From Mycobacteriaceae bacterium (GTDB lineage: Bacteria; Actinomycetota; Actinomycetes; Mycobacteriales; Mycobacteriaceae), in the NCBI GenBank assembly GCA_019749805.1, contig JAIEPH010000044.1, positions 1 to 64,000 of the forward strand: a stretch of DNA of 64,000 nucleotides. Direction: 5' to 3'. Position numbers and translations under genes: made by a program. Of the stretch, positions 27,579 to 33,336 are shown one piece after another; position 1 is the first letter of the stretch; each line of letters begins with the position of its first letter. The notes under the pieces are model-generated. The model was not told the origin of the DNA, made no database searches, and saw only the letters and a list, made by a program, of their open reading frames with translations.

Positions 27579-27603
27579 TGACTACCGCGGAAAGTTGGGC
27601 CTG

Positions 27604-28260
27604 ATGTCCCTGATCGACGCGCTCGGACTCGCCAGCGGGATTTTCTGGATCTTGACCTACGCATGCGTGATAAGGCGTGGCCTGCTCGACCGCACGTACG
27701 CGATGCCGTTTCTCGCACTCGCGATGAACATCACCTGGGAGTTCCTGTTTACGTTCGTCTATCCTTCGGTCGGCGGCATCATGCAGGAAAGCATCAACGC
27801 GATCTGGTTCGCCGCCGACATTGCGATCCTCGCGATCTTCTTGAAGTACTGGCGCTCCGATTACCCGAAAAACCTTCCGGAGTCGTACTTCTGGCCCATG
27901 TTCGCCTTCACCTTCGCGATGGTGACCCCCATGATGGTCGCCACCGTTTCAGTGTTCGGGCGCGAGGACGGTTCGGTCTACACGGCGTACATCGATAACT
28001 TGATCATGTCGGTGCTGTTTTTGAGCATGCTTTTGCGCCGCGGTGACAGGCGCGGCCAGAGCATGTGGATCGCCTGGGGCAAGCTGCTGGGCACCGCGAC
28101 CGCCGCCATGTCCCAATACCTCTATGACCCTGGAAACGTTCTCTGGTTGGTGATCTACATCGAGATCCTGATCCTGGATCTTCTCTATGTGTTCCTGCTG
28201 TCGAAAGCCCCGCGGTACCAACGCGAGAAAGTGGCAGCATCAGCAGTCCTACAGCGCTGA
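27604..28260 (+). CDS. polytopic membrane protein resembling Pyr4-type terpene cyclases
   Basis: About 218 residues with roughly seven hydrophobic segments. ATG 27604 (MSLIDALGLASGIF) is preferred to the TTG of the track because GGAAAG lies about 9 bp before it. Two acidic residues sit in or beside membrane helices: Glu in MNITWEFLF (near residue 46) and Asp in IEILILDLLYVF (near residue 192). This spacing and the WE...LDLxY wording recall the catalytic Glu/Asp pair of fungal Pyr4-like meroterpenoid cyclases and their bacterial relatives. No prenyltransferase or epoxidase adjoins it. Membrane location is clear; the enzymatic role is tentative. It is controlled by the divergent TetR. Confidence 0.55.
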   Translation: MSLIDALGLASGIFWILTYACVIRRGLLDRTYAMPFLALAMNITWEFLFTFVYPSVGGIMQESINAIWFAADIAILAIFLKYWRSDYPKNLPESYFWPMFAFTFAMVTPMMVATVSVFGREDGSVYTAYIDNLIMSVLFLSMLLRRGDRRGQSMWIAWGKLLGTATAAMSQYLYDPGNVLWLVIYIEILILDLLYVFLLSKAPRYQREKVAASAVLQR

Positions 28261-28714: not shown

Positions 28715-29698
28715 GTGCCTGCTTCACGTCCCGACTTGCGGCCGGCCTGCGAGGTCGCGCCGTCGCTTCAGTTCCGCACCATTCACGGCTATCGCCGCGC
28801 CTTCCGCATCGCCGGATCGGGCCCCGCGGTGCTGTTGATCCACGGAGTCGGTGACAACTCGACGACCTGGGACAGCGTGCATTCCAAACTTGCGCAACGA
28901 TTTACGGTCATCGCGCCGGACCTCCTGGGCCACGGTGAGTCCGATAAGCCGCGCGCCGACTACTCGCTGGCGTCCTTCGCCAACGGCATGCGCGACCTAC
29001 TGGCCGTACTCGGTATCGACCGCGTCACGCTCGTGGGTCACTCCCTTGGTGGCGGCATCGCCGCTCAGTTCGCCTACCAGTACCCCCACATGGTGGAACG
29101 CATCGTGCTGGTCAGCTGTGGCGGGGTGACGAAGGATGTCACCCCGGCTCTGCGACTGGCAGCAGTGCCGATGGGGGCCGAGTCGCTGGCCGCGTTGCGC
29201 CTCCCGGGCGCGGTCCCCATCCTGAAATCCGCCGGCCGCGCCGCCAAGTCGCTGCTCGGTTCGACCAAGCACGGACGCGATCTGAGCAGCGGTATCGATC
29301 TGCTCGCCCGGCTGGCCGATCCGAAGGCATTGTCGGCGTTCGCGCGGACGGTGCGAGGTGTGGTGGACGGCCGTGGACAGTTCGTCACGATGCTCGATCG
29401 CGCCTACCTCATGCCGTCGATCCCCAAGCAGATCATCTGGGGCGAAGACGACATGGTGATTCCGGCGAGCCACGCGCGGATAGCTCACGAGGCGATGCCC
29501 GAGTCACGCTTGGAGATCTTCGAAAGCTCCGGGCACATGCCCTTTCGCGCCCACCCCGACCGCTTCGTCTCGGTTGTCGAGCGGTTCCTCGACACGACAC
29601 TGCCCGCCGAATACGACCAAACCAGCCTTGGCTCGATGATGCGGGGCTACGTCGGGGAGCACGGCGCTCCCGAGGCGACCGCGTCGATCAGCGCCTGA
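28715..29698 (+). CDS. alpha/beta hydrolase
   Basis: A 327-residue alpha/beta-hydrolase with the oxyanion motif LIHGVGDNSTTW (near residue 42), the nucleophile elbow VGHSLGG (near 110), an acid in IIWGEDDMVIP and the catalytic His in SSGHMPFRAHP (near 275). The start is GTG with GGGAGA about 7 bp upstream. It resembles the mycobacterial Rv2715-type hydrolases by memory; the substrate is unknown. No signal peptide is seen, so it is cytoplasmic. It stands alone on the + strand. Confidence 0.9.
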   Translation: MPASRPDLRPACEVAPSLQFRTIHGYRRAFRIAGSGPAVLLIHGVGDNSTTWDSVHSKLAQRFTVIAPDLLGHGESDKPRADYSLASFANGMRDLLAVLGIDRVTLVGHSLGGGIAAQFAYQYPHMVERIVLVSCGGVTKDVTPALRLAAVPMGAESLAALRLPGAVPILKSAGRAAKSLLGSTKHGRDLSSGIDLLARLADPKALSAFARTVRGVVDGRGQFVTMLDRAYLMPSIPKQIIWGEDDMVIPASHARIAHEAMPESRLEIFESSGHMPFRAHPDRFVSVVERFLDTTLPAEYDQTSLGSMMRGYVGEHGAPEATASISA

Positions 29699-29792: not shown

Positions 29793-30737
29793 ATGAAGGC
29801 TGCCGCCCCGGTCAGGCTGACCGCAACAGGTGTGGCACTTCTATGTGTGCTCGCAGGCTGCAGCAACAGCGACGGCCAGGCATCGCCAGCTTCGTCGGCG
29901 CCGGCGAGCGGTACGCCGAGCGAGTCTGCGACCACTGAGGCCACGACGCCCGTTGATTACAGCACCCTGCTCATCACGACCGAAGACATCGACTCATCGG
30001 AACCCTTCACCGCTGAGCCGCCGATCCTCAACCCGAACGGCGAGGCCGGCGTCAGCGGGCGCTTCTTCGCCGCGGACTCTTCGATGATCGGTTCCACCAT
30101 CAGAGTCCTGGCCGACCTTGCCGAAGCCGCGAGGGTGCTCGAAGTGACCAGGAATGGAATATCGAACGTCTCGGGCAGGCGAGAGCCGTCGCCGATCGGC
30201 ACCAACGGATCGGTGATCGCGGGGACGTCGTTGGATCAAATCACGGGTATCACGGTGCTCACATTCTCCGAACAGAACGCCGTCGTCACACTCGAGTTCG
30301 ACGGCCCCTACGGCAAGCTCGAAGGACTACCAACGGAACTCATTGATTCGGTCGCTCGGCGTCAACTGGAGATACTCAAGGCGAGACTGCCGGAAATCGC
30401 TCCCCCCGCGCCCCTTCGCGTCGCCGCGACCATAGGCGGCGAGCCGGTGGATATCCGAGGCCCGGTGGTGTGCAAGTACTGGAACGGCAGGTCCACCATC
30501 ACCGCGGGCAACTCGGTACTCAAGATCGTCGTCGAGCTCGAGCCGGACGCGTCGGTGGTACACCGCGTGGAGCTCGCCAACGTCGACGACGTCTACCTGA
30601 GTTCGCTCGGCAATATGGCCACCGCCACCAAGGCCGGCAACACCTATACGGTCATCGGCACCGCATCTGGTGAGAGCGACACCAACCCGCCGACGCAGGT
30701 CACCAAACCCTTCGAAATCAGCCTCACGTGCCCCTGA
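29793..30737 (+). CDS. lipoprotein with C-terminal LpqH (19-kDa antigen) domain
   Basis: A 314-residue lipoprotein with signal peptide and lipobox (VALLCVLAGCSN, Cys near residue 24), then a Ser/Thr/Pro/Ala linker. A middle domain of about 140 residues (PVDYSTLLITTEDIDSSEPF to LKARLPEIAPP) follows. The C-terminal part of about 110 residues reads GNMATATKAGNTYTVIGTASG and ends FEISLTCP, matching the mycobacterial LpqH family wording. Classical LpqH proteins are only about 160 residues, so this is a two-domain form. The likely site is the outer face of the plasma membrane or cell envelope. The function is unknown. It ends convergently over the next SDR gene by 14 bp. Confidence 0.85.
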   Translation: MKAAAPVRLTATGVALLCVLAGCSNSDGQASPASSAPASGTPSESATTEATTPVDYSTLLITTEDIDSSEPFTAEPPILNPNGEAGVSGRFFAADSSMIGSTIRVLADLAEAARVLEVTRNGISNVSGRREPSPIGTNGSVIAGTSLDQITGITVLTFSEQNAVVTLEFDGPYGKLEGLPTELIDSVARRQLEILKARLPEIAPPAPLRVAATIGGEPVDIRGPVVCKYWNGRSTITAGNSVLKIVVELEPDASVVHRVELANVDDVYLSSLGNMATATKAGNTYTVIGTASGESDTNPPTQVTKPFEISLTCP

Positions 30738-31668
30738 TGGGGAATGTCGTTCCCGTCTCGCTTTCTGCGAACTCCCAAAGCTTTTGGGCGTCTTCGTAGT
30801 CGCAGGCGTTCGCCGTCCGGCCGGCGAGCGTCGGTCCGCCCTTGAATCCGAACCGTCCGTCGATGCCCACGAAACTGCCCGGCGGAATGGGCTCGCTGAT
30901 GCAGTACAGCGACGTCGCGGCACCGGCGTCGATGTCGTTGCCGATGACGTTCGCGACTCTCGTCACCACCGAGTGAAACGCAGACATCACGCGGGTGTCG
31001 GAGACGTTGGACAGGTTCGAAGCCACCCAGCCCGGATGTGTCAGGAACGATGTGACCGGCGAATTCGCCTCACGCAAACGGCGATCCAGCTCTAACCCCC
31101 ACAACATGACGGCCAATTTCGAGCGGGCGTACGCCGGAAGGGAAGACCACTTCCGCGTGCGCAGATGCGGATCATCGAAGGCGATGACGCCCCCTTTGTG
31201 GGCGTCCGAGCCGACATTGATGATCTTCGATCGCACCCGTTCGAACAGCAGGTTGGTCAACGCGAACGGGCCGAGGAAGTTCGTGCCGAGCATCATCTCG
31301 AAACCATCGACGGTGTCGCGTCGCGTCTGTGCGACCAGGCCCGCGTTGTTGATCAGGATGTCGACGTCACCCTCGATCAGGTCGGGAAACGCACGCACCG
31401 AAGCCTGATCGGCGAGGTCGAGCTTGACGACGGAGGTGTCACCGCCCATCTCGGCCGCGCGCTCGGCGCCCAGGTCCAGGTTGCGCACCGCGAGAATCAC
31501 GTGCGCACCGGTGCGGACCAACGCGCGTGCCGTCCCCAGGCCCACACCGTTCGTCGCGCCGGTCACGACGATGCGCTTACCGCTCAAATCGCCGAGTCGG
31601 CTCGGCGCCCAGTTCGAGGTCACCCTGTTGACGATAGCCAGGGCGTATCCGACCACAAACGTTGACAT
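30724..31668 (-). CDS. short-chain dehydrogenase/reductase
   Basis: A 314-residue SDR with a short hydrophobic N terminus (MSTFVVGYALAIVNRV), the NAD(P) motif VVTGATNGVGLGTARAL (near residue 34), NNAG (near 108) and an active site with Ser in INVGSDAH and YARSKLA (YxxxK). The track ORF extends over the divergent NTF2-like gene; ATG 31668 is chosen because the protein family begins there and no coding logic precedes it. It resembles the retinol-dehydrogenase-like SDRs of mycobacteria. The substrate is unknown. It is divergent from the sulfotransferase operon by 29 bp and may share its control. Confidence 0.9.
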   Translation of the reverse strand: MSTFVVGYALAIVNRVTSNWAPSRLGDLSGKRIVVTGATNGVGLGTARALVRTGAHVILAVRNLDLGAERAAEMGGDTSVVKLDLADQASVRAFPDLIEGDVDILINNAGLVAQTRRDTVDGFEMMLGTNFLGPFALTNLLFERVRSKIINVGSDAHKGGVIAFDDPHLRTRKWSSLPAYARSKLAVMLWGLELDRRLREANSPVTSFLTHPGWVASNLSNVSDTRVMSAFHSVVTRVANVIGNDIDAGAATSLYCISEPIPPGSFVGIDGRFGFKGGPTLAGRTANACDYEDAQKLWEFAESETGTTFPIRGT

Positions 31669-31697
31669 GACAGATTCAGCCTGGTTGTCTACCGCCG

Positions 31698-32141
31698 ATG
31701 AGCGACGGCGCCCGCGAGATCGAGAACCTCGTCTACACCTATGCCGAGCGCCTCGACGCAGGCGACCTCGACGGTGTCGCCGCGCTGTTCGCTCACGGTC
31801 GCATCTGCGGTATGGAGGACGGGCCTCCGGAAACAATCTTCGTTGGCGTTTCCCGGGTGCGGCAGATGTACGAGATGGCAACGCGCCTCTATGAGGACGG
31901 CACCCCGAAGACCAAGCACTTCACCACGAATGTGCGTCTGCAGGTGGATGACGCCGCCGGAACCGCCAACGGCAGCGCGTACTACTGCGTCACTCAGGCA
32001 ACGCCGGACCTGCCGCTGCAGATCATCGTGACCGGCCATTATCGCGACACCTTTCACCGCATCGACGGTGCCTGGTGGTTCGATACACGCACGATGTTCG
32101 TCGACCAGATCGGCGATACCAGCCATCACCTGAAGTTCTGA
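31698..32141 (+). CDS. NTF2/SnoaL-like fold protein
   Basis: A 147-residue cone-shaped alpha+beta protein (MSDGAREIENLVYTYAERLDAGDLDGVAALFA at the N terminus, WFDTRTMFVDQIGDTSHHL at the C terminus), typical of SnoaL_4-type isomerases, dehydratases or binding proteins. It is the first of five tightly packed + strand genes, ending 4 bp before the sulfotransferase. A small-molecule catalytic or carrier role in the same pathway is likely but unproven. Confidence 0.85.
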   Translation: MSDGAREIENLVYTYAERLDAGDLDGVAALFAHGRICGMEDGPPETIFVGVSRVRQMYEMATRLYEDGTPKTKHFTTNVRLQVDDAAGTANGSAYYCVTQATPDLPLQIIVTGHYRDTFHRIDGAWWFDTRTMFVDQIGDTSHHLKF

Positions 32142-32145
32142 TCCG

Positions 32146-33336
32146 GTGGACGATCCATTTCGCGCGACTGGACTCGCGACCGCCGCGCAGCGGAAGGAAG
32201 GCCTCGACGATTGGGGCCCGGTGCCGTTCGAGGAGCCGCTGGGAGTGCTCGCCGAGAGCTACTCGTCGGCGGATCTCAACGACATCGGCGTACACATCCT
32301 CCGTTCGGGCCTCATCCACAGCCTGCGAATGCGTCTGCGTGCTCAAGAGTGGATTCGGCGCCATCCCGAGATCACCGACGAGGTCATCGTCGCGCCGATC
32401 GTGGTGGTCGGCATGATGCGCAGTGGAACCACCCTGCTGCAACGGCTTCTCGCCGCCGACGACCGTTTCCACTGCGCGTACGGCTGGGAGGTGGTCGAGG
32501 TCGCGCCCCGGCTCGATTACAACTGGTCAGCCCAGGCGGATGACCCACGGATCGCGATCAGCGAGAAGCGCGAAGCGACGTCGCGTGAACTCGCCCCCGT
32601 CTTGTTCTCCATCCACCCGATGTATGCCCGCGAACCCGAAGAGGAGATCGTCTTCCTCTCCGATGCGTTTCTGTCGCACGTACCGGAGTCCGGCGCGAAC
32701 GTACCGCGATACCGCGCGTGGATCGACGAGCAGGACTTCACGCCGGCCTATGCATACCTGCACAGGATGTTGCAGTTTCTTCAGTGGCAGAAGCGGCAAC
32801 GCGGCTTGACGACGGGTCGCTGGGTGCTCAAATCCCCTGCGCATCTTGGATATCTGGATACATTGCGGGCCCACTTCCCCGACCTGCACCTGGTCCACAT
32901 GCACCGCGACCCCAGGGAGACGATCCCCTCCGGGGCCAGCCTCAACGCGACACTGCACGCCATGCACTCCGACGAGGTAGACCCCCGCCGTGTCGGCGCC
33001 CAGTGGCTACAACGGATGGGCTGGACCAACGACCGTGCGATGACGTCCCGCGCGGGATGGAGCGACGAGGTGCAGCGTTGTACCGACATCGAGTTCACCG
33101 ACGCGGTGGCCGATCCGATCGGGCAGGTCGCCCGTGTCTATCAAGCGATCGGCGCGACATTGTCCTCCGAAGCCGAATCCGCCATGCGCCGTTGGCTTGC
33201 GGAGCGCCCCCGCGAACCGGCCCGCCCGCCGTACTCGGCGGAGGACTTCGGGTTGAGCGATGCCCAGATCGGTGAACGCTTCGCCGATTACAACTCTCGT
33301 TTTCGCGCAGCAGCGAACACCCCGAGGAGGATGTGA
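32146..33336 (+). CDS. PAPS-dependent sulfotransferase family protein
   Basis: A 396-residue protein of the bacterial Sulfotransfer_3 type. The 5'-phosphosulfate loop is GMMRSGTTLLQRLL (near residue 88), and the 3'-phosphate motif lies in HMHRDPRETIPSG (near 255). YGWEVVEVAPRLDY is typical of mycobacterial homologues. The start is GTG, 4 bp after the NTF2-like stop; its stop overlaps the next start (TGATG). It probably moves sulfate from PAPS to a lipid or sterol-like hydroxyl; the acceptor is unknown. The PAPS-making cysDNC genes lie about 12 kb away in this window. Confidence 0.88.
   Translation: MDDPFRATGLATAAQRKEGLDDWGPVPFEEPLGVLAESYSSADLNDIGVHILRSGLIHSLRMRLRAQEWIRRHPEITDEVIVAPIVVVGMMRSGTTLLQRLLAADDRFHCAYGWEVVEVAPRLDYNWSAQADDPRIAISEKREATSRELAPVLFSIHPMYAREPEEEIVFLSDAFLSHVPESGANVPRYRAWIDEQDFTPAYAYLHRMLQFLQWQKRQRGLTTGRWVLKSPAHLGYLDTLRAHFPDLHLVHMHRDPRETIPSGASLNATLHAMHSDEVDPRRVGAQWLQRMGWTNDRAMTSRAGWSDEVQRCTDIEFTDAVADPIGQVARVYQAIGATLSSEAESAMRRWLAERPREPARPPYSAEDFGLSDAQIGERFADYNSRFRAAANTPRRM

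Follow-up and report, generated by a model that had tools for sequence, protein, structure and literature searches.

A rare two-domain predicted lipoprotein of mycobacteria that joins an LpqH-type domain to a member of an unnamed Mycobacterium-only family

Introduction

What does an LpqH domain do in a protein where it does not stand alone? LpqH is a major tuberculosis antigen, and to our knowledge no molecular function is known for its folded domain. The question is raised by a gene in a 64,000-nucleotide stretch of a Mycobacteriaceae genome (contig JAIEPH010000044.1; the window), which a first-pass annotation described as a lipoprotein having an unknown domain between its lipobox and a C-terminal LpqH domain. 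From this architecture it was proposed that LpqH domains are modular envelope adaptors. A literature search found no description of an LpqH domain in multi-domain form. A natural fusion of this kind offers a modest clue to what the LpqH domain may do beyond carrying lipid and sugar, together with a construct ready for use in addressing the question.

Results

Layout of the gene and its product

The gene and its parts are as follows.

29793..30737, + strand: fused lipoprotein gene, 314 aa plus stop, ATG start
29793..29861, + strand: predicted signal peptide, residues 1-23, with lipobox L-A-G-C at 20-23 (from the sequence; lipobox kept in the aligned fused homologues)
29862..29942, + strand: flexible Ser/Thr/Pro/Ala-rich linker, residues 24-50 (from composition; candidate O-mannosylation region)
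29943..30404, + strand: middle domain, residues ~51-204 (corresponds to a whole member of an unnamed family of stand-alone lipoproteins or secreted proteins, found only in Mycobacterium)
30405..30419, + strand: short PAPLR junction, residues 205-209, linking the middle and LpqH domains (from the alignment of fused and stand-alone proteins)
30420..30734, + strand: LpqH / Myco_19_kDa domain, residues 210-314 (PF05481, phmmer to PDB, stand-alone-only profile)
30471..30473, + strand: Cys227 of the LpqH domain (from the alignment)
30729..30731, + strand: Cys313 of the LpqH domain (from the alignment)

An in-frame TAA lies immediately 5' of the ATG, and therefore 29793 is the earliest start. Full-length orthologues of the 314-aa protein (89–91% identical) were found in genomes G126, G147 and M. 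tusciae. The last has ACG at the position of the ATG codon, and judging from the sequence its gene probably starts at a GTG slightly upstream. The four close orthologues give dN/dS values of 0.35–0.59 over the gene, which indicates that it is coding and constrained. What sequence analysis establishes is thus a coding, conserved, two-domain predicted lipoprotein.

The N-terminus has the signal peptide and lipobox Cys of a bacterial lipoprotein, with Cys23 as the predicted lipidation site. Residues 24–53 are rich in Ser, Thr, Pro and Ala (8, 5, 4 and 6, respectively, together 23 of 30), and this linker may be O-mannosylated by analogy with that of LpqH (PMC5341126). From what is known of the family, the fused protein would be exported by Sec, acylated on Cys23 and located in the envelope.

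The C-terminal part is an LpqH domain of a distinct subtype

PF05481 (Myco_19_kDa) was the single Pfam domain found in the protein (residues 210–313, E 7.4e-19), and its score of 68.6 bits is three times the gathering score of 23. The LpqH match noticed on first reading, as well as the conserved Cys before the end, is therefore borne out, and the refuting case named in the first-pass annotation, a C-terminal part lacking a significant LpqH match, did not arise; this residue is Cys313, which together with Cys227 is invariant across the four aligned fused proteins. Among PDB sequences, phmmer retrieved the LpqH entries 4zjm (E 3e-8) and 7fds (E 4e-8) and the LpqH orthologue 4xin (E 1e-3), over residues 203/213–313. 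From the homology to 4zjm and 7fds, residues 210–313 would adopt an LpqH-like three-dimensional fold. Cys227 and Cys313 may be joined in a disulfide. We also compared the two halves separately, as had been suggested, using profiles of stand-alone homologues that were both built without any fused sequence. The LpqH profile scored 81 bits on the fused protein (best of 2000 protein shuffles, 7.9), and the middle profile covered residues 52–200 with 142 bits (best of 2000 shuffles, 8.3).

The fused LpqH domain falls in a separate subclade, distinct from LpqH proper (the Rv3763 orthologue), and we term this subtype LpqH-B. LpqH proper is encoded elsewhere in the source genome (L005). In the source genome, G126, G147 and G039 it was seen with no separate LpqH-B gene.

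The protein resembles LpqH in having a homologous C-terminal domain with both Cys kept, and a comparable N-terminal part made up of a lipobox and an S/T-rich linker. It differs in layout: the lipobox and the LpqH domain are separated by 186 residues (186–204 across the fusions) containing a second complete domain, whereas all other LpqH domains checked are 12–45 residues from their own lipobox, except for a few with no detectable lipobox. The short stand-alone arrangement, in which the LpqH domain comes straight after the lipobox and linker, is not found here.

On contig C92 of the source genome, LpqH proper and a divergent paralogue form a tandem pair (L005, 1498–1965 and 2073–2510), and similar pairs are present in other genomes. 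M. smegmatis has two lpqH homologues, MSMEG_6315/MSMEG_6316 (PMC5341126).

The middle domain belongs to a widespread Mycobacterium-only family

The additional domain is present, with a length of 154 residues rather than the 140 first estimated. It was described as unknown, and this is right in so far as nothing in Pfam or NCBIfam matched it above cut-off; it is not an orphan, however, but a copy of a common stand-alone family found only in Mycobacterium. We detected this family in 137 of 199 Mycobacterium genomes, many of which have several copies. When 399 genomes were sampled across the order, it was confined to one genus of 85 and absent from the 84 others. Genome G074 (4.4 Mb) gave no match to the family profile, and no relatives were found on the plasmids and viral contigs searched. 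Three further copies occur in the source genome (L002, L003 and L004), two of them with a lipobox and L002 without a detectable one.

The stand-alone proteins align with the fused protein over their entire length, that is, over the lipobox, linker and middle domain (at most 48% identity to the nearest members). Most have their own lipobox, and they stop 0–12 residues past the domain boundary, where the fusion continues into the LpqH domain. Positions conserved in the family are DY..LL, NPnG..G, I.dTI, vG..G....G.spD and F..g.a...leF, together with a D-P-x-x-A turn and helix and a C-terminal Q.

With the family profile, a PDB search gave no match under E 1, and AlphaFold2 run on the middle domain from three alignment rows gave a pLDDT of 36, too low to be of use. 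The only resemblance was to two families of mycobacterial exported domains, DUF7373 (PF24088) and PknH_C (PF14032). It centres on a strand-helix motif and is sub-threshold, with E 0.0036 and 0.016, respectively, for the best members and 0.012 and 0.081 for the consensus; profile-profile comparison with PknH_C by hhalign gave a probability of 14% over 29 columns, and PF14032 had no match on the 314-aa protein itself. The sensor domain of PknH contains two disulfide bonds and a V-shaped cleft, the proposed binding site of a small ligand, and similar extracellular domains occur in LpqQ, LprH, LppH, LpqA and Rv3705c of M. tuberculosis (PMC4118811). The middle domain has zero Cys, and thus lacks the two intramolecular disulfides of the PknH type; membership of PknH_C is therefore not claimed. 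DUF7373 was likewise set aside as an assignment, all matches to either family being below the curated cut-offs.

The fusion is rare and mostly found at one locus

A survey of mycobacteria for the same architecture had been recommended in the first-pass annotation. A full-protein search of 397 Mycobacterium genomes gave six fusions, that of the source genome included; identities of the other five to the source protein are 91% (G126), 89% (G147), 53% (G278), 50% (G039) and 41% (G336). A scan of named genomes added a fusion from M. tusciae DSM 44338, 90% identical. In all seven, PF05481 was well above cut-off and was preceded by a middle domain. We also surveyed PF05481 in 61 genomes, where the long open frames inspected were ordinary LpqH genes with stop-free DNA upstream: 16 such regions were read as candidates for extra fusions and rejected, the additional length being GC-rich stop-free DNA 5' of short LpqH genes. 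The fusion is restricted to a small group of environmental mycobacteria near Mycolicibacterium tusciae, and is rare.

The surrounding genes served as locus markers.

27595-28260, + strand: Pyr4-like transmembrane terpene cyclase, upstream of the hydrolase (PF25129, E 1.4e-29)
28715..29698, + strand: alpha/beta hydrolase, upstream neighbour and locus marker (PF00561, E 5e-34)
30724..31881, - strand: short-chain dehydrogenase-like (SDR) gene, downstream and convergent, locus marker (assigned from its own sequence, no family search)

The order hydrolase, fusion, SDR is common to the source genome, G126, G147, M. tusciae, G039 and G278, with additional DNA at the G278 locus such that the hydrolase is near the fusion and not adjoining it. 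The G336 fusion does not share this locus, and its sequence is divergent. Pyr4-like terpene cyclases are best known from fungal meroterpenoid pathways; a sulfotransferase-like gene (32146-33336) and SDR genes also lie nearby.

The gene very probably arose by fusion, possibly only once

The middle domain corresponds to an entire protein of a stand-alone family whose members end at the domain boundary, and we therefore consider it very probable that the gene originated by the joining of two mycobacterial lipoproteins that otherwise stand alone. The LpqH tree places the fused domains and stand-alone genes of a single subtype together in one subclade (100/99); in the middle-domain tree they share one subclade (100/99) with four genes of stand-alone proteins. 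Each half of every fusion thus belongs to a single subclade of its family, and the data do not reject one common origin: constraining the seven fusions together in AU tests gave p 0.32 and 0.12 for the two trees. One fusion event, with later loss or movement, fits these trees. The different locus and divergence of the G336 gene leave room for a second fusion or a move, and two events are possible, with G336 as the doubtful case.

The reverse process, domain loss from former fusions, was looked for as decayed LpqH remnants: tblastn of the DNA downstream of the nearest stand-alone genes for the middle domain (including L012 and L013) found none. The products of these two genes (L012 in G014, L013 in G053) carry the middle domain alone and end in Pro/Ala-rich tails that resemble the inter-domain junction of the fusions.

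Discussion

The protein is a real and rare LpqH-domain protein of non-classical architecture, otherwise an ordinary domain shuffle, whose function can only be inferred. The account that we regard as likely, taking fusion origin, layout and action together, is that an LpqH-B-type domain became attached, in frame, at the C-terminal end of a stand-alone Mycobacterium-only lipoprotein. The latter would have contributed the signal peptide, the lipidated Cys23 and the disordered S/T/P/A linker. Two small folded domains would then follow one another, with the middle domain closer to the membrane anchor and the LpqH domain distal, where it may serve as a stabilising or spacing surface module. The most likely action, though a weak proposal, is that any binding is done by the middle domain, which might take up a small ligand from the envelope or the extracellular space, as has been proposed for the PknH-type sensor domain that it faintly resembles; this part is a guess by analogy, and unlikely to be correct.

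The joining could also have been neutral or nearly so, the LpqH domain being a passenger, that is, a stable surface module with no dedicated joint function. The rarity and lineage restriction of the fusion would suit such an origin, as would its raised divergence (~90% identity vs 94–97% for the neighbouring enzymes), its long stem branches in both trees and the moderate dN/dS. However, both domains are intact across ~50% divergence and the locus has been retained in several lineages, so that we consider a neutral fusion rather unlikely, though a serious alternative.

A further possibility is that the two domains are functional partners, with the fusion locking an adaptor LpqH to a client or ligand-binding domain and the stand-alone copies cooperating elsewhere. 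Each of the two families consists of lipoproteins exported by mycobacteria, and the source genome and three others have ordinary LpqH only, as described above, which would be in keeping with partnership. This reading predicts that the stand-alone partners travel together. We observed the middle family in 10 of the 26 genomes with stand-alone LpqH-B (best E < 1e-39) and in 123 of the 169 without (Fisher p 0.001), a comparison confounded by phylogeny; co-occurrence is rarer than expected, and the trend runs opposite to the prediction. Co-occurrence was consequently discarded as a sign of partnership, and no adjacent pair of stand-alone LpqH-B and middle-family genes was present among the matches listed. 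We regard partnership of the two domains as improbable, and these results lend no support to the proposal of LpqH as an envelope adaptor. Its modularity fares somewhat better, because the domain has entered another context; it did so in about one event, though, and the other LpqH domains checked keep close to their lipobox, so that the fusion points to LpqH modularity only weakly. With only one or two fusion events, the general claim of a modular adaptor is not carried. That the fusion reveals LpqH-type domains as interaction or spacer modules, and the middle family as ligand-binding proteins with an LpqH-type client or partner, is highly improbable.

Display towards the host, in which the middle domain would act as an adhesin or as the receptor of a ligand and the whole protein as an antigen and TLR2 ligand like LpqH, is very unlikely: the lipobox and S/T-rich linker do recall the glycosylated, acylated N-terminus of LpqH, but TLR2 agonism of LpqH is ascribed to its lipid moiety and not to its fold (PMC5341126), the middle profile has no match in G074 or outside Mycobacterium, and the fusion is limited to few species. 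The TLR2 activity that the first-pass annotation links with LpqH would, being ascribed to a lipid moiety shared by all lipoproteins, follow from any lipobox, and it says nothing particular about the fusion.

The more useful outcome may be the middle family itself, an unnamed Mycobacterium-only family in about two thirds of the sampled species. It is large (alignment A2; e.g. L002, L003, L004, L011–L051) and multi-copy in many species. In several genomes some members are neighbouring tandem copies, as in L095 of G039 (738–1427 and 1450–2106) and likewise in L019 and L035. Pairs of a middle-family and an LpqH-type gene, ~7–8 kb apart, recur in G004, G024, G044 and G054, and contig C89 of the source genome has an LpqH-type gene (L006) at a distance of 7.3 kb from a weak middle-like match (L007).
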